NCBI RefSeq assembly: GCF_000153465.1
Contig: NZ_CH672387.1
Location: 1,019,180 to 1,083,179 of the forward strand
DNA: 64,000 bases
From: Aurantimonas manganoxydans SI85-9A1
GTDB taxonomy: Bacteria; Pseudomonadota; Alphaproteobacteria; Rhizobiales; Rhizobiaceae
Direction of reading: 5' to 3'
The translations under genes and the position numbers were made by a program. The notes under the pieces are model-generated. The model was not told the DNA's origin and did not search any database. It was given only the letters and a program-made list of their open reading frames with translations. Position 1 is the first letter of the stretch, and the number at the start of each line of letters is the position of its first letter. Shown in pieces: positions 43,512-60,468 of this stretch.

Positions 43512-43586
43512 GCGCCCATCGTCTAGCGGTTAGGACGGCGCCCTCTCACGGCGCAAACAGGGGTTCGATTCCCCTTGGGCGTACCA
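43512..43586 (+). tRNA. tRNA-Glu (anticodon CUC)
   Basis: A complete cloverleaf. The acceptor stem is GCGCCCA with TGGGCGT (one G-U pair), the D arm is GTCT...GGAC, and the anticodon stem is GCGCC/GGCGC. The loop CTCTCAC has anticodon CTC at 43545-43547. The T arm is AGGGG-TTCGATT-CCCCT, and CCA is encoded. It marks the border between core genome and the defence island. Confidence 0.97.
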
Positions 43587-43788
43587 CTTGTCTCGCGACA
43601 CATAGTTTGCTGATTCACCCCCAAAGAACGCATTTCTTCCCGCCTGACGGGAAAATTCCTCGCATAACGTGCAACGGTCGGGCGGCTGTTGTTTTCCTGC
43701 CTGCCGAGAACGGATTCCTTGGCAGGTGGGGTCTGGGATACGTACTTAGACAGAGCGAATAGTGATTCTGATTTCTCTGGGCCGGGAA
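43587..43788. other. tRNA-island junction sequence
   Basis: About 200 bp without a gene, of clearly lower GC than the left side. It holds two stem-loops, TTCCCG/CGGGAA (43637-43653) and CCTGCC/GGCAGG (near 43699-43726). These could terminate the minus-strand Hsp70-like transcript but lack good T runs. No integrase remnant or tRNA direct repeat was recognised. Confidence 0.4.
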
Positions 43789-45675
43789 TCAGCCGGTCCG
43801 ACATTCAACCCTTCCCAGGCATGATTCGATCGGGCCATCGGCCATGATCACCGAAATCGATCGTCCACAATGCACACAAGGCTGGTAGAACAGCCTTTCC
43901 TCTCGCTGCCGCGGTGAGGCTGTGTCCGAACGAGTGTCGAAGTGATTCGGCTTGTATCTATCTACGAGATCGCCCGGAACCACTCGCCAATACGGGTCTG
44001 TTCGGTTATCCCCCTTCACGTCCAGTGCCACGTTCGTACGCTGAGCCAAATTCACATCCCGGACTCTGATCAAGTCAGGCCCGACAGACGGCTTCTTTGA
44101 CGCCGGTGGGAGCGGTTCATCCTCTTCATCGTCGAGGTCTGGTCGGTCTATCGGCAGCGAAAGAGCAAAATCGAGATCGTGAAACTCGATCTGCTGGGTA
44201 TCCTTTCGCCCCAGAGAGCGAAGAACGGCCTTGGCAACGTAATCATGGTCGATCTCTAGATTGCAGGTAACTCGCTCGATCAATGGGTTTGCTTTTGGAT
44301 CCACGGCAACACTGACAGAGTGCAGCGTAACCCGGGGAGCGGTGGAGGGCACCCGTCCGGGGGCAACCGGTTTGGCAAACTCTATGCAAGCCACGCCTTC
44401 CGTTGGATCGGTACAGAACAGCCTTGAATTCGGCGCCGATAAGACCTGGCCTTCCATCGGCAGTTCCGTCCCAGCGGGAACAAGGGTGTGATAGGTGCCT
44501 CTACCGGAACTGTCGGCGCTGAGAATTTCGATGGGTTTCGACAGGCGAAGCCGAAGGGCGTCGTGAGCGATCCAAGCGGCACCTTCCGAGATAATCCTGT
44601 CACCGTTCGCAGGAGCGTTGTACCGACCCGGGAAATACTCCGCGAGGGCGTTTCGGATAGCGGGCATGTTCACCATCCCACCTGTTGCGAGGCAAAGAGC
44701 AACGTCCTGGCTTTCGAGCCCAGCTTTTTCCAGGATCGCGTTCACCAGCGCCAATCCACGGTTGACGATCTGCCGGCTGGCGTCCTCAAACTCCTCGATC
44801 GTAATCGTCTGAACTAGGTTCCGCTCCGGGCCTGGCAGGTTGAGGTAGTCCCTGACAATGATTCGACCGGTTGTCGTGCCAGGCTGAGACAAGGCAATCT
44901 TCAGCTTCTCGCACTCGGCCAGAAGCTTCGCCCCCATCCCGGGATGCTCGAGGGAAACAACATCGTCGATGTCCCGTGCCTGACCATGTTTCGCCCGAAT
45001 CAGGTTCCGGAGTCGCTCGTCAAACCGGTCTCCACCTACCTCGTTGTCGCCGAGACTCTCGATCTGGTGGATCGTTCCGCCCTGGATGCGGCAAAGCGTC
45101 AGATCGAGGGTCCCACCGCCCCAATCGAAGACAAGCATGTTTCGATCGCCCATTCGGGCGACCTCACGTGCGAAGTTGTCCAGTGATCGAAGATGAGCGT
45201 ATAGCGCCGCGACGGGCTCATGGACGAACTGGACGACGCCAATGCCAGCCTTGCTCGCGGCTGCGCGCAAGGCTCGTCTTTCAGGGCCGCCGAAGTTGAC
45301 GGGGATCGTCATTACAGCCTGGCGAACATTGGCGCCGTCCCGTCCTTCGCGTGATCTGGAGGCATCCTTGACGAGGTACCGCAGAACCTCTGCAATCGCG
45401 TCCGAGGGATCGATCGATCGGCCGTCGACCAATATCGGTGTGCCTTGACGCAGATGCATCTTGGGCGATCGCACGAAGCCGGGAGGGGCGCCGCCTTCGT
45501 CAAGGTCCAAGCTGTTTCGCGCATCGGTACCGACAACAACCTCAGTACCGCGGTACCAGAGGACCGAAGGGTGCGGCCTGGTCTCGTGATTGAGCAGATG
45601 GAGCGCCCGCTTGTTACTGATCCTGGTAATCAGACTGTTCGTCGTGCCGAAATCAATACCGTAAATTTCGCTCAT
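43789..45675 (-). CDS. divergent Hsp70/DnaK-like ATPase with C-terminal cysteine cluster
   Basis: A 628-aa protein. The nucleotide-binding domain has the actin-fold motifs: GIDFGTTNS at residues 6-14, IPVNFGGPERRALRAAASKA at 124-143, FDWGGGTLDLTLC at 183-195, and LATGGMVNMPAIRNAL about 150 residues later. A beta-domain like the Hsp70 substrate-binding half follows (LVPAGTELPMEGQVL, CIEFAKPVAPGR). In place of the helical lid there is an acidic linker (DEEDEPLPP) and a C-terminal segment with Cys600, Cys603, Cys619 and Cys625, which could bind zinc. It is not housekeeping DnaK. It overlaps the preceding coiled-coil gene by ATGA and ends the island's minus-strand genes. Function is unknown; a chaperone-like defence role is inferred from context. 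Confidence 0.85.
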   Translation of the reverse strand: MSEIYGIDFGTTNSLITRISNKRALHLLNHETRPHPSVLWYRGTEVVVGTDARNSLDLDEGGAPPGFVRSPKMHLRQGTPILVDGRSIDPSDAIAEVLRYLVKDASRSREGRDGANVRQAVMTIPVNFGGPERRALRAAASKAGIGVVQFVHEPVAALYAHLRSLDNFAREVARMGDRNMLVFDWGGGTLDLTLCRIQGGTIHQIESLGDNEVGGDRFDERLRNLIRAKHGQARDIDDVVSLEHPGMGAKLLAECEKLKIALSQPGTTTGRIIVRDYLNLPGPERNLVQTITIEEFEDASRQIVNRGLALVNAILEKAGLESQDVALCLATGGMVNMPAIRNALAEYFPGRYNAPANGDRIISEGAAWIAHDALRLRLSKPIEILSADSSGRGTYHTLVPAGTELPMEGQVLSAPNSRLFCTDPTEGVACIEFAKPVAPGRVPSTAPRVTLHSVSVAVDPKANPLIERVTCNLEIDHDYVAKAVLRSLGRKDTQQIEFHDLDFALSLPIDRPDLDDEEDEPLPPASKKPSVGPDLIRVRDVNLAQRTNVALDVKGDNRTDPYWRVVPGDLVDRYKPNHFDTRSDTASPRQREERLFYQPCVHCGRSISVIMADGPIESCLGRVECRTG

Positions 45676-46976
45676 CGCCCCATCTCCTCGATCATTGCCT
45701 GGATCTGGCGAATTCGCTCGTCGGCGGCATCCATGGCTTCTTTGCCCACACCAGACGTTTCCTCGGCGGCGATCGCGACGGCGTCCGCAGCATCGGATAC
45801 GAAGTCACCGACCCGTTTCAGTCTGACCCGGAAATCTGCCTTCAACTGCTCAATGTCGTTTCCTGCGTGCTGGTCGGCGTTGCGTGCCTCTAGTCGCGTC
45901 TGATCCAGAAGCGCGGCCATATCCTCTTTTTCACGCTCCAACCCCGTGAGCTTCTGGCTCAATTCGGCATTGCGAGCTTCTTCCCGATCGAGACGTGTCC
46001 GAAGATCCGTTTTCTGATTTCGCTCGTCATCCCGTGCGGCCACTGCACTCCGAACTCGGTCTTCAGCCATGGCAAGTGCCGTGACTGCGGTGCGAAGTTC
46101 CGACATGGTGCCGCGAGTAATCGCTCGCCGAATTCGAACCTCGGCCTCATTCGGCTTCTCGACGTAGAGGTGCTTAAGAACATCGACGACCGGAAGCACT
46201 TCAAGGCCTCGCTTCTCGATCAGCCATGCGATCCCGAGTCGCAGATCAGTCTCCAAGGATCTCGCTGATTGCCGATCTTCGTCACTTTCCGTCAATCGGC
46301 CGACACCTGCGATGAGGCGACGAAGAATTTGCGTGGGGGGCGCCGAAAACAGATCAATCTCTCTGCCAACGATCGCCGAGGTTCTCAATCGTACATAAGG
46401 CCAGACCCAAGCTTCCACTGCTGGTGCGGACGACGCGTTGTTTGCCAGCACCCAAAGCCGGCTCCCGTCAGGGTCGTTTGACCGCTGTGCAGCCTCTGCT
46501 ACCTGAGTATCATCGTGATCGAAGCGCCGTTTATTGGCTGCTTTCAACGCTTTCAGGAATGCTGCGATGTTTACTTTTTCCGGACCGAACCAAGCCGCCA
46601 GAAGAGGCTCTACCCGAGTCTTCTTCTCACTTCCTGTGGCGTCCGCGTCGGTCTGAACCGCCTTGCTCGAAGAACCTTCATCGAGGCTATCGCTATTCGC
46701 CTCAATGTCGTTGGCCACGGCACCATCCAGCTCGGCAACCATTTCCATTTCGCTGCCTGGACGCGGCCCGTTCCGAACCGCTGTTTCCTCTTCTTCCGGC
46801 GCAGCTTTGGTTGGGCGGCGCTTATCGGTATCCTTCAAGAGGGGCTTGGTGCTATCTGGCCGCTCCGCAGCGAAGTCGGCTGCAATCTCATTCTTCCGAC
46901 TGGCATTCTGCCGAGACGACTTTCGCTTCCTGCTCATTTCGCGGTGACGGTTCTTCGGAGCCGTTTTATCGTTCAT
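45672..46976 (-). CDS. coiled-coil protein of the Hsp70 cassette
   Basis: A 434-aa protein I cannot assign to a family. The start at 46976 overlaps the upstream gene by 4 bases (ATGA). A basic, disordered N-terminus (NRHREMSRKRKSSRQNASRK) and acidic linker extend to about residue 125. A folded helical region follows (VEPLLAAWFGPEKVNIAAFL ... SRLWVLANNASSAPAVEAWV). A coiled coil runs from about residue 291 to 385 (AEDRVRSAVAARDDERNQKT, NAELSQKLTGLEREKEDMAA). The tail ends with another helix (AADERIRQIQAMIEEMGR). The long coiled coil before a small C-terminal part is reminiscent of GrpE-type nucleotide exchange factors, and its overlap with an Hsp70 gene would fit, but this is only inference. 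Confidence 0.75.
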   Translation of the reverse strand: MNDKTAPKNRHREMSRKRKSSRQNASRKNEIAADFAAERPDSTKPLLKDTDKRRPTKAAPEEEETAVRNGPRPGSEMEMVAELDGAVANDIEANSDSLDEGSSSKAVQTDADATGSEKKTRVEPLLAAWFGPEKVNIAAFLKALKAANKRRFDHDDTQVAEAAQRSNDPDGSRLWVLANNASSAPAVEAWVWPYVRLRTSAIVGREIDLFSAPPTQILRRLIAGVGRLTESDEDRQSARSLETDLRLGIAWLIEKRGLEVLPVVDVLKHLYVEKPNEAEVRIRRAITRGTMSELRTAVTALAMAEDRVRSAVAARDDERNQKTDLRTRLDREEARNAELSQKLTGLEREKEDMAALLDQTRLEARNADQHAGNDIEQLKADFRVRLKRVGDFVSDAADAVAIAAEETSGVGKEAMDAADERIRQIQAMIEEMGR

Positions 46977-48106
46977 GCGTTTGCACCTGCCATGTGTCCG
47001 GCCGCCCACTTCTCGAAGGGATAGATTCCGGCGATCTGCGTCAGAGGCTCCTGAGCCTTGTCTTTTCGTCGGAATCGAAGCGCAGTGACCGCCCAGAACG
47101 CAAGCACCTTCCTGCGATCGCGGAGGTCGAAATTCCGACTGGAGGAGACCTCTCGGCACTCTTCCTCTATCAGGTCGCTCCAACGATCGTAGTTTGCGAA
47201 CCGCTTCGCCATTTCGAGCATTCTGCTCGTCCCATGATCAACGGGACATGGTATCCGCGGAGGGGCGACGCCCCGAACCTCAGCGGGCGACGAGTGGGAT
47301 TTCCCGGCAAGCATGTCCGAGGCGATGTCCAGATCGGCGAAGCCGCTCGACCCAGTCAGCGCGCTCAGGTCATTGAGCATGAACGAAGTGATCGTGGAAA
47401 TCAGACGGGCGAGGGGCCGATCGAAATTCCGGAGTGCCTCGTAGGCCCGGGCAAGTCGCTCAGGATATTCGGAGAACGCCGTCACTTGGCCCTCACCTGG
47501 GTTTTCCTTCAGGAGCAGGCCGAGCGTGTAGAGGTAGAGTCCCTCGGCGTAACTCTTGCCAATCGCGGAGCAGCGCGCATCTTCGACGAACAACCGCATG
47601 TTCGTCTTCGTCATGCCTCTGCCGCGAACGTGTTCCTCGAAAGCGTTTTCGATCGCGATGAGGGCCTGCTCATCTGCAATGCGGAAATCGAGGCGATACT
47701 CGCTTTCGGTTGGCATCATGTTGGGCTGGCAGCCATTCGCGAGCCGCACCCGGACATGCCTATCCCGAAGTCCTTCAAGAAGAAGGGGCAGATCGCTCCT
47801 ATCGACCTTCATCCAGGCCTGGCCGTCGACTTCAATCGCTGTGTCAGTCACATTTGCCAGCGCAAACATTGCTCGCCCGCGGACCTTCACTTCTCGAGGG
47901 CACTCCTGAGAGTTGAGAAAAAGGACCGGCCGCTCCTGCCGGTGCTGGTTCGCTACGTGCAACTGCCGGGCACCTGCACTCGGGAAGGCGGATTTACAGA
48001 ACGGACAGATGAACGACGGCTTCACAGACCCGCCCGGGGCCGCGGTACGGTCTATACGCTCAAGAACTGCATCCAGCGTGTCTTCGAAGACGTATGTGAT
48101 ACCCAT
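46973..48106 (-). CDS. C2H2-finger protein, first gene of the Hsp70 cassette
   Basis: A 377-aa protein of unknown family. After a short N-terminus it has a C2H2-type finger, Cys34-x2-Cys37-x12-His50-x4-His55 (CPFCKSAFPSAGARQLHVAN). The rest is mixed alpha/beta: LNSQECPREVKVRGRAMFAL, then a DSDLPLLLEGL-like helix, a region with YRLDFRIADEQALIAIENAF, and a mostly helical C-terminal half ending FEKWAAGHMAGANA. The finger suggests binding of nucleic acid or of a partner protein. A promoter-like sequence lies just upstream, so the three-gene cassette may be expressed apart from BREX. Confidence 0.75.
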   Translation of the reverse strand: MGITYVFEDTLDAVLERIDRTAAPGGSVKPSFICPFCKSAFPSAGARQLHVANQHRQERPVLFLNSQECPREVKVRGRAMFALANVTDTAIEVDGQAWMKVDRSDLPLLLEGLRDRHVRVRLANGCQPNMMPTESEYRLDFRIADEQALIAIENAFEEHVRGRGMTKTNMRLFVEDARCSAIGKSYAEGLYLYTLGLLLKENPGEGQVTAFSEYPERLARAYEALRNFDRPLARLISTITSFMLNDLSALTGSSGFADLDIASDMLAGKSHSSPAEVRGVAPPRIPCPVDHGTSRMLEMAKRFANYDRWSDLIEEECREVSSSRNFDLRDRRKVLAFWAVTALRFRRKDKAQEPLTQIAGIYPFEKWAAGHMAGANA

Positions 48107-48139
48107 CGTACAGCCATAACCGAATCATCACTCGGATTG

Positions 48140-48169
48140 ATTGTAACGCTTGCTGCCTATATCCGTCAG
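48140..48169 (-). promoter_or_regulatory. candidate promoter of the Hsp70 cassette
   Basis: On the minus strand CTGACG (48169-48164), an 18-base spacer and TACAAT (48145-48140). The -10 ends 34 bases before the start codon at 48106. It lies in the 137-bp gap behind the BREX operon. Confidence 0.5.
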
Positions 48170-48243
48170 GTGTCGGCCATTATCGTTCAACATCGCGATT
48201 GCGCGGTTTCGCATTGCGGCCCGCGGCTAACTGGAAGCCGGTT

Positions 48244-48675
48244 TTAGCCTCCAGCCGATTGTGATGGGGTCGGAATGCTGTGTGCTTTGAATTGTCCGGT
48301 TTCGTCGTCGAATTCCACGATCTTCATGAGAACCCTCGGAAGTGGATGAGCGCTCGCGATTTTCCGAGGCCTCGCTTTAGTGTCTTCCGCAGTCGCGACC
48401 ACCACGCGGACGACTCCGCCTAGTTTGGCAAGTGCAAGCCTGATGTATTCACGTCGTTCGGAATTGCCGGGTCGGTTCACCTCGTCGGCAGCCTCCCATG
48501 CCGAATCGTCGTAGGAGTATGTCTTTGTCGCCTTGTCGAAGAGGAGCTTATCCTTCCAGAATGTGAGAACGACCAAGCTGTCGTCCGTTGCTTTTGCAGA
48601 CCAACTCCAACGGACGTTCTTCAATTTTACACCGTAGGACCCAAAGGCTTCCGTCTTGTTCATGATCGCACTCAA
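48244..48675 (-). CDS. 143-aa unknown protein at the end of the BREX operon
   Basis: The start overlaps the brxL stop by 4 bases (ATGA), so it is translationally coupled to BREX; an internal ATG four codons later is an alternative. It is a small single-domain protein with mixed strands: FGSYGVKLKNVRWSWSAKAT, DSLVVLTFWKDKLL, a basic helix NSERREYIRLALAKLGGVVR, then VRVVVATAEDTKARPRKIAS and a C-terminal acidic strand. I recognise no catalytic motif or family. Coupling suggests an accessory BREX role such as regulation or an added effector. Confidence 0.75.
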   Translation of the reverse strand: MSAIMNKTEAFGSYGVKLKNVRWSWSAKATDDSLVVLTFWKDKLLFDKATKTYSYDDSAWEAADEVNRPGNSERREYIRLALAKLGGVVRVVVATAEDTKARPRKIASAHPLPRVLMKIVEFDDETGQFKAHSIPTPSQSAGG

Positions 48676-50732
48676 TTCAGCCCCAATGCTTTGAAGGCGG
48701 CGTCGACCGGATCCGAAAAGAACGACGTCTGGAATTTGGTGAACAATTCCGCTGGGATCGTTGGGATGTCTGCAGCACTGGCCATCGGGATCAGGATTTT
48801 CTTTGCCCCGCTGTCAAAAGCCATCTGGAGCGATTCGGCGAGATCCTGAACCGGCACTACGCTGCCGCCGAGACTCATATCGCCCAGGATCACCATCTGA
48901 CCTTGCACCGGCTTCTTCAGGATGCCCGAGCAGAGGGCCACGAATCCCGCGAGGGTGATAGCCGTCGGGGCCCCTGCATTGTGTAGCTCCACGGTGTGGA
49001 CGTGGACATCGTGGTCACTCGGCCGAGTGCTCGCGCTGATCCGACCCGCATTCGCCTTGAAGAAATCAAAGGCAATCCCGAGCGCCTCCTTGGCTTTCTG
49101 GTTTGATCCCAGGCCGGACACGGTGAACTTCCCGCTGCCGGTCGTTGTCTGCACCTCCAGGCGATACAGGCTACGGTGGCCCGACTTCGCCCCAGCGGCG
49201 ATCGTGTGGAGCGTCCCGGGATTCATTTGGCTTTCCGGGATCAGCTTCCCGCCACCCTGTTCGGGCACGCTCACGAAAGTCTCCTCCAGCGTCTCGTTAT
49301 CGAGATAGGAGAAGTGAACGTCGTAGAACTCCATGCCGCCGATCTTCTTCAGCTGCTCCTTTACCCTCCGGCGGGCTTCGAGGGCATATTCGAGGCAGCG
49401 GCGGACAGCTTCCTTGTCGTAGTCGGCGCTGGGATGGAGAAGCTTCAGGAGTCCCGAAACCGTGCGACGGACAGCAATCGTGTCCCGCTGGTTCAGATTG
49501 TTGCCGAGCTTGAAATAGTGGTCGATCGCGTCGGAGAAGTTCCTCTTCCGCATCTCCCTCATGTACTCAGCCAGGTAATCGGTGATGAGGCCGAACCGGT
49601 TGGTGAAGAATTCCGGGCGCATCTTCGGAATCTCCCAGCCGGGGATATAGGCGTGGAAGCGATCGAAGAACGCGGAATCGATCATTGCCTCGGGGAACGG
49701 CGCCAGGAGGTGGCTGGTCTTCACCAGCGTATCGACGGGCTGGTTGATGTTGCCGACGAAGACCATCGACGCCGAACCGGCCACTGACTCTCGCCCGCGG
49801 ACAAAACTGCCCGACGCCATGAAGTCCTTCATGATCTGGACGCCATCCTTGTCCTTGAAGCTGATGCCGGCAACCTCGTCGAACGCGACGACGTCCCACA
49901 TGCCGACGAGCCCCACGACCCGGCTGGCCATGTTATAGAAAAGGTTCGCAACGGTCGTCTGGCCGCCCGACACCAGAATGCTGTTCGGGCTGCATTCCTT
50001 ATAGACGTGGCTCTTGCCGGTGCCGCGAGGGCCCAGTTCGCAGCAATTGTAGTTATTTTCGACGAACGGTATGAGACGGGAAAGGAGGTGCCATTTCACC
50101 CGGTTATCGAAGTTCGATGGCTCCATGCCCGTCGATCGCAAGAGGACGTCGAGCCACTGCTCCTCAGAGAAGTGAGAGCGTCCCTCAAGAAGCTCCGGCA
50201 TATCCATGTTCGGCATCTGGATCGGCTTCAGATCCGAGATCGAGAACGGCGAGGACTTTGAGCCCTCCTCGTAGAGGTAGTGCATGGTCACGATGCACCA
50301 GATCCCGCCCGAGAGGAGCTTTTCGTATCTGCGGACGTCGGCGCTGGAGATGAAGGCGTCCTTCACTCCGAGATTCGAGAGCAGTGCTTCGTACCGGTCC
50401 TTCTTCTCGTTGAGCTTGACGGTCACCTTGTCGATGACCTTGAAGCTGCCCCGCTCCTTGATCGTCGATTTGATCTTTTCGGCCTCGTCCGGGCGGACGT
50501 AGTTCTCCGAAAGGATACGCTTCACGCTCTCCAGGCCATCGCGGATCGTCGCCTCGTCGTCGGACGCGCAGTACATGCCGAGCAGGTACTCGAGCACATA
50601 GACCGGGACGTTCGCACCTTCCTTCAGGAGCTTGGTCAGATCCTTGCGGACGACCTTGCCACCGAAATGCCGAACGACGAGTTCGTCGACCTCAGTCGAA
50701 GTCGCGGGCGATGGCGAGATCGATAATGACAT
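48672..50732 (-). CDS. brxL: BREX protein BrxL (AAA+ with Lon-like C-terminus)
   Basis: A 686-aa core protein of type I BREX. The N-terminal part (VVRHFGGKVVRKDLTKLLKE, VYVLEYLLGMYCASDDE) is typical of BrxL. The AAA+ domain has Walker A GPRGTGKSHVYK near residues 233-244 and the Walker B-like VVAFDEVAG near 281-289. The Lon-like C-terminal domain carries GDMSLGGSVVPVQDLAESLQ near residue 620. The Lon catalytic serine motif GPSAG is replaced by GAPTA, and the Lys region GGLKEK by QDLAES, so peptidase activity is doubtful. The start at 50732, with AGGAG upstream, overlaps pglZ by 41 bases. Confidence 0.95.
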   Translation of the reverse strand: MSLSISPSPATSTEVDELVVRHFGGKVVRKDLTKLLKEGANVPVYVLEYLLGMYCASDDEATIRDGLESVKRILSENYVRPDEAEKIKSTIKERGSFKVIDKVTVKLNEKKDRYEALLSNLGVKDAFISSADVRRYEKLLSGGIWCIVTMHYLYEEGSKSSPFSISDLKPIQMPNMDMPELLEGRSHFSEEQWLDVLLRSTGMEPSNFDNRVKWHLLSRLIPFVENNYNCCELGPRGTGKSHVYKECSPNSILVSGGQTTVANLFYNMASRVVGLVGMWDVVAFDEVAGISFKDKDGVQIMKDFMASGSFVRGRESVAGSASMVFVGNINQPVDTLVKTSHLLAPFPEAMIDSAFFDRFHAYIPGWEIPKMRPEFFTNRFGLITDYLAEYMREMRKRNFSDAIDHYFKLGNNLNQRDTIAVRRTVSGLLKLLHPSADYDKEAVRRCLEYALEARRRVKEQLKKIGGMEFYDVHFSYLDNETLEETFVSVPEQGGGKLIPESQMNPGTLHTIAAGAKSGHRSLYRLEVQTTTGSGKFTVSGLGSNQKAKEALGIAFDFFKANAGRISASTRPSDHDVHVHTVELHNAGAPTAITLAGFVALCSGILKKPVQGQMVILGDMSLGGSVVPVQDLAESLQMAFDSGAKKILIPMASAADIPTIPAELFTKFQTSFFSDPVDAAFKALGLN

Positions 50733-53286
50733 GCTGACTCAACTCCTGAACCTTGGTCTCGGCGTTCCGGACGACGAGGAAAAATCGCTGCGACTTATCG
50801 AACGCCGTCCCGGCCAGAGTCAGCCGAACGGTCTGCTTCCAGTCTTCCGACATCGTCGGCGTCTTGCTGTCGAACGTGACCTTCTGGATATCCGAGACCG
50901 GACGCCCGTCGGAGCCGACGATCGCGACAGTAACACTCATCGGACGAACGCGGTCGGAGACGGGCTCGGTCTGCATAAGGTCGAAGCTGCGACGCGGCGT
51001 CGTGATCCGGTTATTCGCGCCGAGGACGGTGATCTGCACCGGCCGGGACTTTACGTCGTTCGCATCCTTGTCTTTCGAGTAGGCGATCCGCAGGACCGGC
51101 ACACAAATTTCCTGGAGCATGGCGCCGCCGTGAAGGAAGCGGGCACCCCCCATGAAGTGGAAGCGGGACGTGCCCTTCGGAACCCAGAACTCAGTGTCGT
51201 CGCGGACGTCCGAAGTGCGCGAGAGAGGAGCGGACCAAGCACCTGGATGCGATCCGAGCTTCGCGCCCACGTAATAGCGCTTCTTCGCCAAGACGACGCC
51301 TTCAGGCTTGTCCTCGACCGCGTTCTTGTCGACGCTGGTCGGAGGGCTCTCCTGGTAGAGAAATCCGTGGTCTGCGGTGACGAAGAGGTTCGTTCCGTTC
51401 AGGCTGCCGAGAATACGGATCGCCAGCGACGTGATGTCGTTGATCGTCCTGCGGACGGCGTCGAATGCTTTTTCCTCATCGCCGCCGTCGGCCGTCTTGT
51501 CGATGTGGTTATGGTAGACGTAGACGACCTTGTTCGACCTGAGGAAGCGACGCCCCTCGTCGACGGACATCGCATGAAGTTCCTCCGCGCCGATCACGCC
51601 ACCGCCGTGCTTCGCGAGGATTTCGCCACGGTTCTTCATTCCACTCGAAGACTTCCCGTCCACGGTGACGACCCCGCCTGAAAATGCGAGATCCTTGTGG
51701 GGAAGAAGCGAGGCCATGCCGAGCGCGGTAAAGGATGGAAGAACACCCAGCTGCGTCGTCAGCTTCGCTTCCATGCGATCGCGGCTGTTTATCTGGTCCG
51801 CGAGTTCCTTTGCGGCCTCAAAGCGGAAGGCATCGCTGATGATAACGATGGCCCGCTTGTCGTCTTCTTGCACGATGGGAGCAATCCGCTTCTCGTAGAA
51901 GCGCGACTGTCTTGGCACGCCGGAGATCTGCCACTTCGAGCTGATCATCTCTGCCGCGAATGGGCCCCAGGCGGTCGCCAGCTTCGCGACGTATCCGTTC
52001 CCATAGACGTCCTCGACCTTCTGGCGAAGCGTCTTGAGGATATCCCATCCCTGCCTCTCGACCTGATCCGCAGCTTCGCAGAAATGGCGGTAGAGCTGAT
52101 CGAACCGATACAGGTCGGTTTCGTAGGCCTGCCAGAACTCCTCGACCGTCTCGAACGAAAAGCCTGAGGCGTAGGCGCCGCGCAGACTGAAGAGGCGCGC
52201 CGCGTACTCCAACGCGTCGTATGTCCGCGCATAGGCCTTGCGAGGTGCTGTGTCACCCAGGCTTTCGTTGGCCCAGTACCCGTCCTTCCGCCGACGGCAC
52301 AGGGAAGCGACTTCCTCGACGTCGACCGCGGTATCGGTGTCGATGATCCGATTCCGGAGGCCGGAGGCGAGCCGCCGCTCGATCAGAGAGAACGTGCGTG
52401 TGTCTTCGAGATATTCGGGATCGACCGAACCGACATGATCCCCTAGCTTGATCGCGTTAGAGACCGCATCGGAAAGCCTATCGAAGCTCGAATGCCGGGC
52501 GTGACTGTCCTGCCACTGTGCCACGCAGACGGCGGTGTTCGACGTACCTTGCCCACGAAGCTTCAGGTGCTCGAGCGCCTTAGGCGTTTTGCCATTCAGC
52601 TTTCGCGTGAAGTCGGTGACGAGAAGACGGATCAGGAGGTTTCCGAGCGAGGGACGTGGATCAGCAAATCCGAACACCGCATCGACCTGTCTCCAGAAGG
52701 ACTCCTCGACATCGTACTTCGCGAATTCGCTGAAGACCTCCGGTGGGCGGGAAATGTCGGACTGGTCCGGGAAGGCATCGAAAATCGCGATGACGATGCC
52801 GAAGAAGTCGGCGTTGTCCAGCCGGAGCAGGTTCGCCATGATCTTCCGATCGATATCGACCTCGTTGTCCTTCGGCGAGACGAAACGCTTGAACCTTGTC
52901 AGGCGCTCGCGGCTCGCGAAAAACTTGGCTCGCTGCGCGATATGATCCCGCAGGGCCGGCGTATGTAGGCCGAGATCCTCAAGGATATGGGTCGAGCGAT
53001 CCGCAGCGAAGCCCTTCGCGTAGAGGCGGATGTCGAGAAGCCAATCGTCGGCCGGTTCCGGCCGAGACTGATCCTCATAGACCAGGAACCGAGAATCGGC
53101 GGCGCCGGCGGCGATCGCCAGTTTCGCTTCGAGAGCCGGCGATCTCGACACCCTAATGACCGTCGCGCCACCCACGTCGAGCGACGACAGCACATCCTCG
53201 AATTCTCTTTCTGGATCGGACCAGAAGACGACCTTGTTCTCAGCGAGGAACCGGCTGAGCGCGACCTGGATGCGATCGGTATCCAT
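50692..53286 (-). CDS. pglZ: BREX type I phosphatase-fold protein PglZ
   Basis: An 864-aa protein with an alkaline-phosphatase-superfamily core, the hallmark gene of BREX systems. The metal and nucleophile region is IVIISDAFRFEAAKELADQI near residue 475-495, and the second metal site is LFVTADHGFLYQ near 633-644. The N-terminal half (SDPEREFEDVLSSLDVGG, EDQSRPEPADDWLLDIRLYA) is the PglZ type A helical region. It probably hydrolyses phospho-bonds, but the physiological substrate in BREX is not known. Its start overlaps the pglX stop by one base. Confidence 0.95.
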   Translation of the reverse strand: MDTDRIQVALSRFLAENKVVFWSDPEREFEDVLSSLDVGGATVIRVSRSPALEAKLAIAAGAADSRFLVYEDQSRPEPADDWLLDIRLYAKGFAADRSTHILEDLGLHTPALRDHIAQRAKFFASRERLTRFKRFVSPKDNEVDIDRKIMANLLRLDNADFFGIVIAIFDAFPDQSDISRPPEVFSEFAKYDVEESFWRQVDAVFGFADPRPSLGNLLIRLLVTDFTRKLNGKTPKALEHLKLRGQGTSNTAVCVAQWQDSHARHSSFDRLSDAVSNAIKLGDHVGSVDPEYLEDTRTFSLIERRLASGLRNRIIDTDTAVDVEEVASLCRRRKDGYWANESLGDTAPRKAYARTYDALEYAARLFSLRGAYASGFSFETVEEFWQAYETDLYRFDQLYRHFCEAADQVERQGWDILKTLRQKVEDVYGNGYVAKLATAWGPFAAEMISSKWQISGVPRQSRFYEKRIAPIVQEDDKRAIVIISDAFRFEAAKELADQINSRDRMEAKLTTQLGVLPSFTALGMASLLPHKDLAFSGGVVTVDGKSSSGMKNRGEILAKHGGGVIGAEELHAMSVDEGRRFLRSNKVVYVYHNHIDKTADGGDEEKAFDAVRRTINDITSLAIRILGSLNGTNLFVTADHGFLYQESPPTSVDKNAVEDKPEGVVLAKKRYYVGAKLGSHPGAWSAPLSRTSDVRDDTEFWVPKGTSRFHFMGGARFLHGGAMLQEICVPVLRIAYSKDKDANDVKSRPVQITVLGANNRITTPRRSFDLMQTEPVSDRVRPMSVTVAIVGSDGRPVSDIQKVTFDSKTPTMSEDWKQTVRLTLAGTAFDKSQRFFLVVRNAETKVQELSQHVIIDLAIARDFD

Positions 53287-56200
53287 CAGCCCTCGTCCTT
53301 CGTGCCACAGACCAGCTTCGTCGCGGCGAGGAGGTCGCCAAACCTGCTGTAATTGACCTTCACGCCGTCATCGAGATCGAGCGCGATCCGTTCTTCGGCC
53401 ACGTGCCGAAGATTGGCTTCGAAACGATCGAGTTCAGCCTTCTTGGCTTCAAGAACGGCAAGTTCCTTCGTGCGAGCTTTCATTTGAGCGCTCGACAGAT
53501 CTCCCCGAGAAATTTCGCCCTCGATCGTCTGGATTCGATTCTGCATCTTGGTTTGAAGTGGAATGACATATTCGGCCCGCATGCGGCCGAGGGTACTTTC
53601 GTTGTACCGATGCAGATAGACGAGACACTCGAAAGCGCGCTCCTTCCCGGACGAAAATAGCCAATAGATCGGCCGGTTCTTGTATGTTCTCAGATGGTCC
53701 TTAAAGAATGCTCGGGAAATATATTTTCGGATCGTCTCCGAAGCGGACGTCTTGCTTTTCGGTTCGAGCGAGTCTGCGACGAAATCGAGGTCCCCGCCGA
53801 GCCTCTCTTCGCCGAACGTCAGTCGAAGGAAATCGATGAAGCGCGTTGTTGCGTCATCAGGGAACCACTCGACGTCGGTGACCGGAACGATGCCATCGTC
53901 GTCAGCATGAAAACCGCCGTACCTACTCGGATCAAATCCGACGTTTCCGGCATTGGCGTAAACGAGCCCCGGCTCGGCCACCGAGTATCGTCCCATCATG
54001 CAGCCGACGGCATAAGAGATGAGTTCGCGGATCGTGTCCCGCTGCTGGAGGTCCTTCCGCTCATCTTCCGTCCCCTTAACGCCATAGCGATAGGCGGGGT
54101 TACAGGTGAGCGTGATCTCCTCGATCGGCACTTCGGCAGTCAGCTCGTCCTGCAGTCCGTAAGCGTCAATGAAGATGCGATTGTTCTCTTCCTCCAACCG
54201 CTGCATCTCGTCAGTCATGGACTGCCAATGGTCGCGGAGCGTTGCGTAGCTGTCCTCCATCGTCTCGCCGCGGTGAGCGAGTGAGAGCAGCGGGAGCGTG
54301 GTGAAATCCCAGGAGGTTTCGTAGGCGTCCCAGTCGGCGCGGGCATATGAAACGAGAGCCGTTGCCGGTGCAACTTTCGGCAACACAGCCTTGGGAAAAA
54401 GTGCCGCTCCGATATCGCCCGGCTGAAAGTTGAGAGTTGGCGACAGGAACTCAAGATACCTGCTCATCACAGTGGAATTTAAGAAAGCTCCGAATTTCCA
54501 AAGATCAGAATCAGCGAAAAGTGTGCAGCCGCCGTTGTCGAAGACTGCACCCTTCGGTGAATATCGAGCAGAAAATCCACCCGACGAAACGGTAGTCCAG
54601 GTGAAACCTTCTTCAAAGAAGTGCTTGCTATTCCGAATGGTCGGCTTTTTCTTTTTCCAAGTGAGGCGGCTCTTGACTTCCGATCCGTTGCCCTCCCAGT
54701 TTAGGACAATGTCCCTATTGCCATACCAGCGACGAAACTCTCCACCTTTATTATAGGGGACCCACCTGCGGCCTTGTTCCTGTCCTCCCGTTAGATCAGC
54801 GCGGTCTTGGGAGACTTCGTGCCAGAATCTCAGGAAATGTTCATTCTCGCCCGTATCCATTCCTTTCCTCGGCGCAGAAATGTCCTTTAAGAGTTCGCCG
54901 CTGGAATAAAGATCACGTTCCTTTTCGCTAATCCAATATGCGAAAATAAGGCCCGGGATCTTGCGAAACTCCTCCTGCGATAGGGGGAAATAGCCAACAT
55001 CCCGATCTAAGAAGAGGTCACGAATTGTTTCGGGTTTGCGAACGTCGACATGTCTTTCGAAAAGACGGCGGTACGTGCCCTTGTGTCCTGGAAAATGCTG
55101 CCTTTTCGACACTACAAATGCAACGCTGCCGAAGTCGGAGCCAAAGATGCCTCGACCAAGCTGCAAAAGCGATTCAACTGTTAGGTGGTTTATCAGTTGG
55201 CGTCGAGTGTCTTCAAATGAACTTAGGAACATCCAAGACGGAAGATTGATCATCCCCCATTTACCATTTTCTAAACAAAGGATCGACGCTCGGTCCATGA
55301 AACACGTCATGAGATCGGAATAGTGGTTGGGATAGTGTTCCTTGGCCCAGTTAACCAGCTTCCCATTCATTCCCTTCCCGCCCATATACGGCGGGTTGGC
55401 CACCACCACATGATACTTCGGCGACAGCGCCTCGGCCATGCGCAGCACGGCCACGACGCGCTCCTGCACCTCTTTCAGCAGCAGATCGCCGCCGAATTCC
55501 CGCGCCTCGACCACCCGCAGCGTCTCGGCCGGATCGCGCAGCTTCGGCACGATCAGCGAGCCAAAGTTCTTCGCCTGCTCGAACTGACCCAGCGTCTCGC
55601 CCAGCTCGTCCGTAAATAAGTTATTGCCCACCACGGCGGAGACGTCCCGCATCTCCGTTTCGGTGAAGACAATGTCCTCCAAAACGCAAATCTGCGGCTC
55701 TGCTGAACGTGTGAAGAACCGGCTGTCCTGCACTCGAGCTTTCATCGTCAGCGAAAAGGCTGCAAGCGCCCCAGCGCGGTCATCGATCTCGATACCCTGA
55801 AGGTTCTTCTCGATAATAAGCGCCGGGATGTCGCGAGCCCGGTAACCGGCCTCTTCGTAGATCATGTACAGGAGGTCGAAGGCGTAAGTCAGCATGTGGC
55901 CAGAGCCGCAGGCGGGATCGCAGACCTTAATCTCCTCGGGAGAACCGATCTTCAGGAAATCGGTCTCAGGCTCCTCAGGCGCGATGTAATAGTCCATCTT
56001 CTCGGCGAGCCTCGAAGATGGATTGTTCAGAAGCCAGAGCCGACCGAGTGAGTTCTCGACCAGATATCGCACGATCCAGTGGGGCGTGAAAAGCTGCGTG
56101 GCGGCCGGGATGTTTGCCGCAGTGATCTTGATGTTTTTCTTCTTCAGCTTGTCGAAAACGTCATCTTTCTTTTCGGAGATGTAGAACTGGTACAGCCAGC

Positions 56201-56831
56201 CGATGACCTCGACATCCTGCCAAGAGGCTGTGTCCGAGTTCTGCACGAGCTTGCGGATGAGGCCGTCTGTCGCGAGCAGATTGTCAGGCAGCAGAAGTTC
56301 GGTTGCATCGCCGATCTTCTCGAACATGAAGCCCATGGTCTCGCTGAGGGCATTGCACTGGGCGATCAGGATCGCTCGATAAAGCTTTTCTTCGTAGTCA
56401 CCGGCGATCTTCATCTCGCGGACGCTGTTGATCGGAAGCCGCGGCAGGTTCAACAGCTCGGCGTTGACAAGAGCCTCAGGGAGCGTTCCGCCGGCCGTGC
56501 CGGGCCCGACGATCTGGAAACCATGATCGAGATATTCGTGCAGCTCCATGAATCGAAGCGCGACAAGGCGATTGAACCATGTGTAGGCGATCCCCTCAAT
56601 CGCTTGATCGAAACCTTCGGTTTTCACCTTGGAGATGAGGGCGTCGCGCTGCTTCCCGAACGTCTTGTCGTAGGCCGTACCGCCTACGACGAAGACGTCG
56701 CCCTGCCGCTGCGCCTCGACGATGCCGCCGGCGGTGATTCCGATTCGAGCCGCCCGCTCCATGACGGCCTTGCGGAAGTCCTTGCGTGCCTGCGGTGCGT
56801 ATGCCTTCAGGCGGGAAAGATCAACGCTCAT
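53286..56831 (-). CDS. pglX: BREX type I adenine-N6 methyltransferase PglX
   Basis: An 1181-aa DNA methyltransferase that methylates adenine in a non-palindromic motif to mark host DNA, and is also needed for exclusion. SAM motif I is DPACGSGHMLTYAFDLL near residues 304-320, and the catalytic motif NPPYMGG near 478-485. The target-recognition part follows from about residue 497 to 800 (54,430-55,340). A hand count of one line of that segment (54601-54660) gives 40% GC, against 73% for a line at 55501-55560 in the same gene. The C-terminal helical tail (AEYVIPLQTKMQNRIQTIEG) completes the family. It starts 17 bases downstream of the brxC stop. Confidence 0.96.
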   Translation of the reverse strand: MSVDLSRLKAYAPQARKDFRKAVMERAARIGITAGGIVEAQRQGDVFVVGGTAYDKTFGKQRDALISKVKTEGFDQAIEGIAYTWFNRLVALRFMELHEYLDHGFQIVGPGTAGGTLPEALVNAELLNLPRLPINSVREMKIAGDYEEKLYRAILIAQCNALSETMGFMFEKIGDATELLLPDNLLATDGLIRKLVQNSDTASWQDVEVIGWLYQFYISEKKDDVFDKLKKKNIKITAANIPAATQLFTPHWIVRYLVENSLGRLWLLNNPSSRLAEKMDYYIAPEEPETDFLKIGSPEEIKVCDPACGSGHMLTYAFDLLYMIYEEAGYRARDIPALIIEKNLQGIEIDDRAGALAAFSLTMKARVQDSRFFTRSAEPQICVLEDIVFTETEMRDVSAVVGNNLFTDELGETLGQFEQAKNFGSLIVPKLRDPAETLRVVEAREFGGDLLLKEVQERVVAVLRMAEALSPKYHVVVANPPYMGGKGMNGKLVNWAKEHYPNHYSDLMTCFMDRASILCLENGKWGMINLPSWMFLSSFEDTRRQLINHLTVESLLQLGRGIFGSDFGSVAFVVSKRQHFPGHKGTYRRLFERHVDVRKPETIRDLFLDRDVGYFPLSQEEFRKIPGLIFAYWISEKERDLYSSGELLKDISAPRKGMDTGENEHFLRFWHEVSQDRADLTGGQEQGRRWVPYNKGGEFRRWYGNRDIVLNWEGNGSEVKSRLTWKKKKPTIRNSKHFFEEGFTWTTVSSGGFSARYSPKGAVFDNGGCTLFADSDLWKFGAFLNSTVMSRYLEFLSPTLNFQPGDIGAALFPKAVLPKVAPATALVSYARADWDAYETSWDFTTLPLLSLAHRGETMEDSYATLRDHWQSMTDEMQRLEEENNRIFIDAYGLQDELTAEVPIEEITLTCNPAYRYGVKGTEDERKDLQQRDTIRELISYAVGCMMGRYSVAEPGLVYANAGNVGFDPSRYGGFHADDDGIVPVTDVEWFPDDATTRFIDFLRLTFGEERLGGDLDFVADSLEPKSKTSASETIRKYISRAFFKDHLRTYKNRPIYWLFSSGKERAFECLVYLHRYNESTLGRMRAEYVIPLQTKMQNRIQTIEGEISRGDLSSAQMKARTKELAVLEAKKAELDRFEANLRHVAEERIALDLDDGVKVNYSRFGDLLAATKLVCGTKDEG

Positions 56832-56847
56832 ACTCTACAGTTCCCGG

Positions 56848-59800
56848 TCAGCGGATTTCGATGCGTTCGTTCTTGGAGACGGCTTCGGAGAGTCGCGATC
56901 TCAGGCGGTCAATGAAGTCGTCGACCTGCGCCTGGCTTTCGAGGTAGCCATCTGCGGAGACGAGGCTTGCCGGCTGAATGACCCGTTTCGGCTTGAATAC
57001 CACCACCGGAGGTTCCGGTAATTTTCCGTACGGCACGCCGCCCTCAGGACCCCCTCCAACCGTTTCGGGCTGCCTGACGGGCTCCGCCACCTTCATTACC
57101 GAGTTGCCGATCATCTCGAAGGCATCATCATAAGCTTCCCGCGCTTCGGTCTGCGCCATGAAGATCGCAGAGATGCTCGGGCTGGTCTCAATCCGCTTGC
57201 GGATGGTCTGGATCGGATGGAGGGAACGGTTGCGCAGATCCGACCCAGACGAAACATCGTCCAGCTCCGCCTTGATCTTCGCGATCAGAGGATCGACGAT
57301 CCCGTAGGCATGATTCCGGCGCTTCTCGAGCAAGATCCGGTTCGCCTCGGTCACTGTTGCGATCAGCGCCGATGCATCCTGTATCCGGGAGTAGGGAGCT
57401 TCGAGCGCCAGGATGTCCTTGATCGACGTCAGAGCCTTGGCGGCCGCCTCGTCCTTTTCGATCTCCTTTTCGTTGACGGCGAAGTCCATGACGGCCTTTC
57501 GCATAAGGTCCCAAGCGGGCCGCTGCGACGAATGGAAGTCGGACAGGTCCTCGTAGTCTTCGAAGAGGCCGGTGAGGTCAGCCTTCGCGGTGACGAAGGC
57601 CTCGATTAGCTCGTAGCTGCCACGCTTCTGCATGATCGGAGCAATGATGCCCTCGATCTCCGCGATCGCCGATTTACCTGGAAACTCGCCGTCGTCGGCG
57701 AGCGCGCCCCAGGACTTCAGGTTGTCCTGCCAGTTCGTCAGGTTCAGCCGGATGTCCTCGGCGATCGCGTCCTCGCCGACGCCCGGCATCCGGCCGAAGA
57801 TGTCCTTCGCCAGCTGGCGAGCGCTATGAAGCGTTGTCTCGTCGAGCATCTTGCGTCGCTGGATGACGATCTTGCGCCATTTGTTCTGTCCCTCGATCTC
57901 GGACGCAAGCTGGCTGCGGTCGAGGCGCTCGCTGTTCATCAGCAGGTCCGCGGAACCTCGCCGGAATAGCTTGACAACAAGGAGCGCGGTTTCCCGCAGA
58001 CCCCAGCCGTAAGGCCGCTTGTTGAAGTGCTCGGCTATGTCGAAAAGGATGGGCTGCTTGCTCTGCTTTTCGATCAGGCCGACATGGTCGAGAACTTCGT
58101 CAAGAGCCGCTTTGTTCGGATCCTCGTCCTTCAGGTCGAGTGTGTCGTCGGAGGTCGCGAGGATGACCTTCGCGTCCCGGATCGGGTCCTCGGAGAGGTG
58201 AACGAGAAGCCCGATCTTTTTGAAGGTGTTGGCTATGTAATAGTCGAGCGCCTCGACGACGATGGCGTCCGCGGTCGTCGCCTTCGGATCGAGCCGCCGG
58301 CCGTTGACGTAGATGCGAGCGTCGCGGATCAGCGCCTCGATCGTCTGGTGGAGACGCTTCCGCCTCTCGGTGTTCTCGTGCTGGCGCGCCCGGACGATCC
58401 GCTTGACGGATTCCGACTGCGTGCCGTCCATCTTCTGCGTCGCGTATTTCTCGACCTTGAGATAGTCGTAGACGTCGCGAGCGAGGTCCTTCTCATTGCC
58501 GAGGACGACGAGCACCTCGTCATGACTGCGCATGGTGACCGTCGCATCGGCGAAGTCCTCATAGTTGTCAGCGAGAGGGGTGACGATCTTGAGAGGAATC
58601 GCCTTGTCTTTCAGCGCCGAACGCGGTGCATCGTCGACAAAGCGCATGACATCGAGATTACTCTTGATCGGCTTATAGGTGAAAAGCCCCCGGTCGACGC
58701 TCTGCAGCGTGTCATCGAAGATAAGATTGCCGAGCAAGCTGGTCTCCTCGCCCGGATTCAGCCTGATCGCCTTGATCTCCTTGCCAATGTCGCGCTCTTC
58801 GTCGGTCAGAAAGAAGAAGTTCTCACCGTTCCGGCTGATCAGTGTCTCGCTTTCGAGGCGGCGGAGGCTGGCCTCGATTGCCTTACGAAGCGCGACGCGG
58901 TCCGCGTCGATCCTGTCGAGGAACAAGGTGACGAGATTGTCGACGTTGCCGCTGATCTCGTCGACGTAGCGAATGAGAAACAGCGTTTTGAGAACCTCGG
59001 AGTCGAAGGGCTCGAGCGACGGGTTCGTCCGAACGCCGTTGATGGCGCGCCGGACGATGTCCTCCAGGAAGCTCTCGATTGCCGGGTAGAAGAAGTGAAG
59101 CGGGATAAGAGCACCGACAGGCTTGGAAGCACTGTAAACGGCAGCCGTCTGGAAGGCATCCAGCATCGAACGCTCCCCCTTGGCGAGGTGCGCTCCGGTC
59201 ATGCCGTGGGTGCGGCTCGCATCGAAGATCTTCTGGACGAGCTGGAACTGGTAGGGAATGAACGGATAATGGCGGACGAAATCGTCCTCTCCGTCGAAGG
59301 AACGAAGGGTCATCCGGTTGTCGCGGAAGGTGACCTGGTGGCGAAGGATCTCGCCATTCATCCCGAAGTTGGTTTTCAATTCATCCTTCGCCGGCTCGGT
59401 CTTGCCGAGAAGGCGCCGTTGGATCACTTCGTCCGCGTGAGATCCCGACAGCGAGAGGCGAGCCTTGAACCGACCCTGAATCTTGGAGAAGTCTTCCTCG
59501 ACGGTGCTCCGCATCTCGCCCAAGATCGCTTCGATGTTGGCTTGCGACGTGACAACGACCCATGCACCGCCCTTGCAGACCGTTCCAAGATTCTCGGTGA
59601 TGGTCTGCAGATTCAGCATCATTTTGCCGTTTCTGCCAATGAAGCCGCCGATTTCGTCGGCTAGGAAAACGATACGGTGATCTGGGCCTTGGCGGTCCAG
59701 ATACTCCGCGACCCAGTGCGCGAAGTTCTCCGGAGTTGGCTGGAAATCCTTTTCGTACTTGTCGAGCCATTCGCCAGCTTCGGTACGGGGTTTCCCCAAA

Positions 59801-60468
59801 ACCTCGGCGATTGCTCCAATCAGTGCATCCTCATGGAATCGGACGGCGCTACGCTCCTCGATCCAGGGAGATCCAGTCTCTTTTTCAAAGGCGGCCTTGA
59901 ACGCCTCGTACTTCCCCTTTCGCTCCAGGAAGCGTTCCATGTCTGCGATGTAGGGAAAATCAGCGCAGTAGCCGAGCTTCTCGTTGAACACCCGAATGAA
60001 GACCTGGAGGATCGCACGCTCGTCGTTCGACGACGCCTTGCTGTCGACGTTGAAGAGCACGACATCCGTTGGAATGCGGGTCGCCTTCTCGATGTCGGCC
60101 GCGAACATCGGGTCGACGATCTTCGTCCTGAAGAAATCGAGCGCGGTCTTTGAAACCCCATCCTGCTCCACCGATCGGTTCTCGAGGAGGTAGGAAATGA
60201 TCTTGATGAAATGCGACTTTCCCGACCCGAAGAAGCCGGACACCCATACACCGTTCCGGCACGCTGCGTCGCCGCTCCGGCTCAGGGTTTCCGGGGCGAG
60301 GTAGGCGGACAGGAACTCACGCATATAGCGATCCAGCTCCTGCGTGATGACGTATTCATCAAGCTCCTGCCAAACGCTCTTGGCGTCATCCTGATCGGCT
60401 TTGATGACGCCGTTGATCTGACGGTCGATCGGACGGACGAAAAGGTCGGCGATGTTCATGGATGTCAT
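56848..60468 (-). CDS. brxC: BREX P-loop ATPase BrxC
   Basis: A 1206-aa ATPase required for BREX in known systems. Walker A is GFFGSGKSHFIKIISYLL near residues 77-94. RIVFLADEIGGFIGRNGKM near 266 looks like the Walker B region. A central part has FIPYQFQLVQKIFDASRTHG, then a long helical C-terminal half including GVRTNPSLEPFDSEVLKTLF. The N-terminus is MTSMNIADLFVRPIDRQING. It overlaps brxB by 4 bases (ATGA). Length agrees with BrxC/PglY of type I. Confidence 0.96.
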   Translation of the reverse strand: MTSMNIADLFVRPIDRQINGVIKADQDDAKSVWQELDEYVITQELDRYMREFLSAYLAPETLSRSGDAACRNGVWVSGFFGSGKSHFIKIISYLLENRSVEQDGVSKTALDFFRTKIVDPMFAADIEKATRIPTDVVLFNVDSKASSNDERAILQVFIRVFNEKLGYCADFPYIADMERFLERKGKYEAFKAAFEKETGSPWIEERSAVRFHEDALIGAIAEVLGKPRTEAGEWLDKYEKDFQPTPENFAHWVAEYLDRQGPDHRIVFLADEIGGFIGRNGKMMLNLQTITENLGTVCKGGAWVVVTSQANIEAILGEMRSTVEEDFSKIQGRFKARLSLSGSHADEVIQRRLLGKTEPAKDELKTNFGMNGEILRHQVTFRDNRMTLRSFDGEDDFVRHYPFIPYQFQLVQKIFDASRTHGMTGAHLAKGERSMLDAFQTAAVYSASKPVGALIPLHFFYPAIESFLEDIVRRAINGVRTNPSLEPFDSEVLKTLFLIRYVDEISGNVDNLVTLFLDRIDADRVALRKAIEASLRRLESETLISRNGENFFFLTDEERDIGKEIKAIRLNPGEETSLLGNLIFDDTLQSVDRGLFTYKPIKSNLDVMRFVDDAPRSALKDKAIPLKIVTPLADNYEDFADATVTMRSHDEVLVVLGNEKDLARDVYDYLKVEKYATQKMDGTQSESVKRIVRARQHENTERRKRLHQTIEALIRDARIYVNGRRLDPKATTADAIVVEALDYYIANTFKKIGLLVHLSEDPIRDAKVILATSDDTLDLKDEDPNKAALDEVLDHVGLIEKQSKQPILFDIAEHFNKRPYGWGLRETALLVVKLFRRGSADLLMNSERLDRSQLASEIEGQNKWRKIVIQRRKMLDETTLHSARQLAKDIFGRMPGVGEDAIAEDIRLNLTNWQDNLKSWGALADDGEFPGKSAIAEIEGIIAPIMQKRGSYELIEAFVTAKADLTGLFEDYEDLSDFHSSQRPAWDLMRKAVMDFAVNEKEIEKDEAAAKALTSIKDILALEAPYSRIQDASALIATVTEANRILLEKRRNHAYGIVDPLIAKIKAELDDVSSGSDLRNRSLHPIQTIRKRIETSPSISAIFMAQTEAREAYDDAFEMIGNSVMKVAEPVRQPETVGGGPEGGVPYGKLPEPPVVVFKPKRVIQPASLVSADGYLESQAQVDDFIDRLRSRLSEAVSKNERIEIR

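Follow-up and report, generated by a model that had tools for sequence, protein, structure and literature searches.

What does an Hsp70 that is encoded with two companion genes at the edge of a phage-defence operon do? The question is raised by three adjoining genes in a 64,000-nucleotide stretch of Aurantimonas manganoxydans SI85-9A1 (contig NZ_CH672387.1, positions 1,019,180 to 1,083,179), which as a whole is called the window (W) here. All three genes lie on the minus strand. The finger-protein gene (46973-48106) encodes 377 amino acids, an N-terminal C2H2 finger followed by a body; the coiled-coil gene (45672-46976) encodes 434 amino acids from its ATG, its open frame extending upstream to a TTG at 47183; and the Hsp70 gene (43789-45675), identified from the open reading frame list and Pfam, encodes 628 amino acids. 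Adjacent genes overlap by four bases at both junctions, finger/coiled coil and coiled coil/Hsp70. On one side lie type 1 bacteriophage exclusion (BREX) genes (48672-61681, minus strand; by rising coordinate brxL, pglZ of type A, pglX, brxC, brxB and brxA), and on the other a tRNA-Glu (CTC) gene (43512-43586, plus strand). The original prediction, made from the sequence alone, had described three minus-strand genes in this order, with ATGA-type overlaps, between BREX and a tRNA, and genes, strand, overlaps and place all agree with that description. The naming of the products as C2H2-finger, coiled-coil and Hsp70-like proteins likewise stands, with a Pfam HSP70 match of 6e-45 and a match of the finger-protein profile (25 rows) to solved C2H2 fingers of 8e-19 at best.

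The trio is a recurring unit. All three genes, in the same order and on one strand, are present in 29 of the 29 loci found via the Hsp70, the finger and coiled-coil genes being detected by profile searches. As the loci were collected through the Hsp70, this count means that no case of this Hsp70 lacking the other two genes was encountered. The 29 loci comprise the window, two plasmids (L005, L006), five loci on viral contigs (L008-L012) and at least 21 loci of a genome scan (L021-L041), and they fall in Proteobacteria, Actinomycetota and Chloroflexota. Hsp70 identity is at least 35% in L008-L012 and L021-L041; the other 59 loci kept in the genome scan reach at most 31%, except for one short segment at 39% (L074). 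Imperfect loci are counted in the 29: in the near-identical Paenarthrobacter plasmids L005 and L006 an insertion sequence, IS3, splits the finger gene in two, the finger gene is cut by a contig end in L012 and L039 (in L039 the Hsp70 is only 257 amino acids long), the Hsp70 of L011 ends early near a contig end, and that of L036 is in two frames. The cassette may be decaying in the two plasmids with the IS3-split gene. A more distant second clade (L042, L043, L045) also has a homologue of the finger protein, the middle gene being recognised by eye.

The distances of the three proteins agree with each other, with a Mantel r of 0.949 for finger and Hsp70, 0.912 for coiled coil and Hsp70 and 0.951 for finger and coiled coil (24 of the 29 loci; permutation maximum 0.363 in 2000 permutations each). 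Judged by sequence comparison, the three genes are one obligate, co-inherited and mobile module. The module is rare. It was found in 2 of the 398 genomes of a phylum sample (the window's own genome and that of L037), the finger protein alone in its own genome only in a class sample of 289 genomes, and the Hsp70 alone in its own genome only among 100 relatives. When the plasmid collection was searched with the finger protein there was one match, on a Paenarthrobacter conjugative plasmid with an Hsp70 gene nearby and the coiled-coil gene between; the coiled-coil protein itself had no match in the plasmid collection. The finger protein had no match in the phage collection, and the Hsp70 matches there were below 30% identity (15 of 26 records listed). 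In two actinobacterial trios (L005 and L032) a fourth gene of about 450 amino acids follows (L005:17220-18560, L032:6898-8262); by eye it encodes a coiled coil with flanking parts, and the L032 copy is without a Pfam match.

The genes next to the trio point to immunity. The original prediction had proposed a defence cassette, which should recur as a trio near defence genes and not be scattered as homologues over core loci; in the profile search the trio was complete throughout, and 18 of the 29 loci lie beside a restriction or defence system (labels partly assigned by eye). These partners are seven BREX systems (W, L010, L029, L030, L031, L034, L037), five systems with DUF499 or DUF1156 genes (L023, L024, L025, L027, and DUF1156 with a helicase in L033), three with McrB/McrC-like genes (L008, L021, L022), one with RAMP-like genes of type III clustered regularly interspaced short palindromic repeats (CRISPR) systems (L028, by eye only), and the two near-identical plasmids, where methyltransferase, helicase, GIY-YIG and DUF262 genes are annotated. 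Labels other than BREX were read by eye from start sequences; a Pfam tally of 91 neighbour proteins gave DUF1156 four times, DUF499 three times and McrBC twice. BREX genes were found by phmmer near 7 of the 29 family loci vs 0 of 67 other Hsp70 loci, with the window's own BREX proteins as queries, which distant BREX escapes. Additionally, a PADLOC scan of trio neighbours matched 235 families, and among the 25 listed, models for BREX, Hma-like methylase, DUF1156 and other methylases predominate. This set held 91 of 97 proteins, at most two per side, from the 27 loci other than W and L006; the six proteins dropped for size are four of L041, one of L009 and one of L026. The DUF499/DUF1156 systems are Type-1 BREX-related systems according to the main text of PMC12839542, and BREX type 1 and these related systems are frequent operon partners of the trio.

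We used a tree of 26 Hsp70 sequences (the set without L036, L039 and L006) to follow the partners, with partner labels fixed before the first tree; long branches are present in it. The seven BREX rows as one clade were rejected (p 3e-5), as were the five DUF499/DUF1156 rows (p 6e-5). Because the BREX rows do not form one clade, the cassette, as far as its sequences tell, changes partner systems. The nearest relatives of the window Hsp70 adjoin McrBC-like genes (L008, L021, L022), a DUF499 gene (L023) or no assigned system (L011). Several systems with a PglZ of type B have related trios, and L031 and the window stand apart from them.

The place within the operon raises a competing explanation, namely that the trio is a dedicated chaperone of its partner, which would assemble, hold or reset restriction complexes (BrxC-PglX-PglZ-BrxL, DUF499-methyltransferase-helicase, McrBC) and have no antiviral action of its own. 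In five BREX loci (L010, L029, L030, L034, L037) the trio sits between pglX and pglZ, the latter named by eye and from the PADLOC tally, and in L029 and L034 further genes share this gap with it; L030 is a locus of Deefgea chitinilytica. In L024 and L025 it sits between ATPase and methyltransferase genes, with genes overlapping or closely spaced. Such tight insertion is what a partner's chaperone would show, but the partners come from several families and the trio does not keep to one position in the operon. In L031, furthermore, BrxL is 74-76% identical to that of five other type-B loci, and the Hsp70 only 38-40%.

A survey of the pglX-pglZ gap bears on the same point. It covered 10 PglZ-type-B genes from 9 genomes in a sample of 369 that was centred on G473, a genome picked as a trio carrier. 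The gap is empty in L148, L150 and L151. In L149 Pfam identifies a Schlafen/AlbA gene there, together with an AAA-domain companion, and in L153 and L156 a Schlafen/AlbA-like gene is recognised by eye. L155 has GmrSD in this place (Pfam). The trio occupies it in L154, which belongs to G473 and lies on the same contig as L037, and contig ends cut the gap in L152 and L157. The trio thus stands beside none of the nine PglZ-type-B genes other than that of G473, two of the nine being cut by contig ends, which rules it out as a core component of BREX and also argues against a dedicated chaperone. Since the gap is elsewhere empty or filled by Schlafen/AlbA-like genes or GmrSD, the trio takes a place used by other defence genes, and it is one of several inserts of this gap. 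GmrSD is a restriction endonuclease family, in contrast to the trio, where no nuclease was recognised. Another defence gene nested in BREX operons is BrxU.

What kind of machine the three proteins could form was examined one by one. The Hsp70 has an ATPase domain at about residues 1-375, a substrate-binding-like beta domain to about 505 and then a tail, the limits being read from alignments. Its residues D8, T11, T12, N13, K72, E153, D184, T189 and D191 are invariant in 29 of 29 rows, and among them we take there to be the equivalents of DnaK K70, E171, D194, T199 and D201. Its profile has 597 positions, and the alignment to DnaK chains takes in the substrate-binding beta domain, ending at about position 491-524; among the matches listed no DnaK alignment continues beyond position 524, about where the helical lid begins. 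The tail has no clear similarity to that lid and ends in a zinc-ribbon-like cysteine cluster (43801-43878, minus strand) with a CxxC at 600-603 and cysteines 619 and 625; C600 and C603 are kept in all 27 covering rows and C619 in 23 of them. The protein therefore belongs to the same ATPase family as the Hsp70 of the DnaK-DnaJ-GrpE system, with invariant catalytic residues and likeness through the beta domain, but differs from DnaK in having a cysteine-rich tail where the likeness stops near the lid.

The C2H2 finger (47942-48007, minus strand) has the pattern CX2CX12HX4H, and its ligands C34, C37, H50 and H55 are each invariant in 27 of 27 rows. Pfam gives sub-cut-off matches to DUF7410 (residues 34-55) and zf-Di19 (31-59), and the body has further invariant residues (F173, Y186, N245, D290, D330, K333). 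The coiled-coil protein has a single sub-cut-off Pfam coiled-coil match. Its AlphaFold2 model, built with 25 of the 29 rows (mean predicted local distance difference test score 74, predicted template modelling score 0.53), has a low-confidence region at 1-118, a confident helical domain at about 120-290, one helix of 115 residues at 291-405 and an end helix at 410-433. The earlier suggestion that the coiled coil is an exchange factor found no support in profile comparison as far as the GrpE type is concerned, since hhalign gave probabilities of 1.6%, 5.2%, 1.9% and 0.9%; another exchange factor, or an adaptor, would still fit. Pfam reported no J domain in the three trio proteins. The host genome has its own GrpE and further Hsp70 matches.

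Intact catalytic residues also bear on the idea that the trio contains an RNA-binding Hsp70 of the CnuD kind, that is, a poorly hydrolysing Hsp70 that would point a restriction system at foreign RNA. In passages of PMC11090510, McrBC homologues occur in CoCoNuTs alongside coiled coils and domains like those of Hsp70, BREX is named in the same superoperons, CnuD has HEAT-like repeats and degenerate Walker A-like motifs, and the systems are tied to NxD GTPase McrBC homologues. The likeness to CnuD and CnuCD lies in an Hsp70 homologue and coiled coils within restriction operons, with BREX among the neighbours, and three trio loci do adjoin McrB/McrC-like genes. The trio differs by being a separate three-gene unit with a finger protein; Pfam gave no HEAT repeats for the window Hsp70, a degenerate ATPase of the CnuD kind is at odds with catalytic residues invariant in every row, and McrB/McrC-like neighbours were assigned in 3 of the 29 loci only. 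Set apart from CnuD in this way, by its published description, the trio is very improbably a system of that kind.

We infer the defence role, the ATP hydrolysis, the client and the part of each protein from these comparisons, and propose the following. The finger protein would select a client through its variable body, the zinc finger gripping a surface of protein or nucleic acid. Docked on the Hsp70, the long-helix coiled-coil protein would act as a co-chaperone, and the ATP-hydrolysing Hsp70 would then capture and remodel the client, most likely a phage protein or a nucleoprotein complex of the phage on DNA that is entering or replicating. The module would in this manner add its own defence layer to the adjoining restriction system. 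Our tentative reading, which falls somewhat short of an even chance, is thus a private Hsp70 machine that serves as an exchangeable accessory next to or inside the operons of DNA-targeting immune systems (BREX, DUF499/DUF1156, McrBC) and remodels a phage client. We favour a module with an action of its own, given that neither partners nor operon position are constant and that the same gap is occupied by other defence genes as well. A bolder version, possible but doubtful, is a self-standing immunity with the Hsp70 machine as the weapon: the finger would mark phage nucleoprotein, and ATP-driven Hsp70 binding would strip, unfold or trap the target, with neither nuclease nor toxin, as a plug-in for unrelated restriction families.

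Several observations weigh against such an accessory. No nuclease, toxin or other effector was recognised in the trio by Pfam or PADLOC (each protein matched 0 families of PADLOC-DB 2.0.0 at E 0.01), which is unusual for a self-standing system. Distances of BrxL and Hsp70 correlate among the seven BREX loci (r 0.63, reached in 6 of 5040 permutations), and partner change is for that reason not free. Both points are what a chaperone dedicated to its partner would predict, and this explanation is kept close because no effector was recognised and because of the tight insertion within operons; we nevertheless consider it unlikely. Eleven of the 29 loci are without an assigned partner (L009, L011, L012, L026, L032, L035, L036, L038, L039, L040, L041), which speaks against a partner's chaperone as well; among these, L038 has an AbiEii-like AAA gene near the trio, L041 has two dynamin-like GTPases, and L036, with its two-frame Hsp70, lies among metabolic genes (by eye). 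The missing profile kinship of the coiled coil with GrpE counts against the accessory too. Finally, the PADLOC control was not neutral: a set of 95 proteins, taken from every second one of the 55 other Hsp70 loci L046-L100 (28 loci), matched 182 families, and the 25 listed include DrmA, GajB, Dnd/Ssp and Leo models. Since this control also gave defence matches, no enrichment ratio is claimed.

How the trio came to its place in the window can be answered more directly. A 49-bp repeat (attL-like, 43540-43588) at the 3' end of the tRNA-Glu gene has an exact second copy on the same chromosome, at window-equivalent 98125-98173 (G000:C1:1117304-1117352), and a gene with a phage-integrase domain lies just inside the right repeat (window-equivalent 96643-97974). 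In the sister genome G295 the site is empty, the left flank (97% identical) and the right flank (93%) being joined on one 49-base copy. From the direct repeats, the integrase gene and this empty site it follows that the trio is cargo of a 54.6-kb integrative element with its attachment site in tRNA-Glu, where it comes first among the cargo, counted from the tRNA end. BREX lies in the element too, and so do genes whose products have Mu-transposase-C, TniB and TniQ domains. The latter genes are consecutive within the element and close to BREX (L133:2173-7444, window-equivalent 66173-71444), and we take this row to be a Tn7/Tn5053-like transposon.

Residence in such an element suggests a third explanation: the trio would serve the mobile elements themselves, in stress or maintenance (for instance as a chaperone for replication or transfer), and defence genes would be nearby only through shared islands. 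Apart from the window, two trio copies sit on conjugative plasmids (L005, L006), L039 has a recombinase gene next to it, and recombinase or integrase genes were recognised by eye next to L009 and L012. Placement inside BREX and DUF499 operons, and in a gap that is elsewhere used by defence genes, would be unexpected for element maintenance, and we regard such hitch-hiking as quite improbable.

Two signs that the original prediction had taken for a cassette separate from BREX were dropped. The lower GC content is common to both (0.55-0.60 across trio and BREX in 2-kb steps, 44001-62000, and 0.66-0.71 to the left of them). The promoter-like sequence upstream of the trio (48140-48169, minus strand) does exist, at chance level: one site was found in the region before the trio vs 1.8 expected from shuffled sequence. 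Between brxL and the trio there is also an open frame of 143 amino acids (48244-48675, minus strand), of which phmmer found no copy in other trio loci.

The trio appears to be unnamed among known defence systems. It was not described in the parts covered of the open literature searched on Hsp70 with BREX, PglZ, DUF499 and defence islands. The main text of PMC12839542 makes no mention of hsp, dnak, chaperone or C2H2, and the trio is not among the components described in the sections covered; PMC3710099, the one paper found to combine Hsp70 with PglZ or with DUF499, mentions Hsp70 a single time, in connection with sacsin. A chaperone link is also found in bNACHT25, whose phage detection needs host DnaJ according to the portion of PMC12169576 covered; that system uses the host's DnaJ, whereas the trio cassette brings its own Hsp70.

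Other Hsp70 loci were seen along the way. A different Hsp70 is followed by two large genes in L047, L050, L052, L065, L068 and L094, and these loci are possibly a second defence-linked Hsp70 cassette; four of them (L050, L052, L068 and L094) were part of the PADLOC control, where DrmA-like and GajB-like helicases appear in the tallies. On a viral contig (L013:6617-11907) a coiled-coil gene, a gene for an Hsp70 of 491 amino acids and a UvrD-like helicase gene (by eye) stand in a row as another Hsp70 cassette. In the archaeal loci L056, L057, L061, L062, L079 and L090 the gene preceding the Hsp70 begins with a region that matches a GrpE profile, and a second match, as a coiled coil, lies further along.

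Chaperones are so far known as host factors that are borrowed by phages or by immune sensors. If true, an Hsp70 machine of this private sort, passed among BREX, BREX-related systems and McrBC, would represent a novel type of immune accessory. With three genes, invariant catalytic residues and invariant finger ligands, the trio offers a simple genetic handle on whether chaperone action restricts phages or activates restriction complexes, and also on why BREX operons carry exchangeable gene slots.

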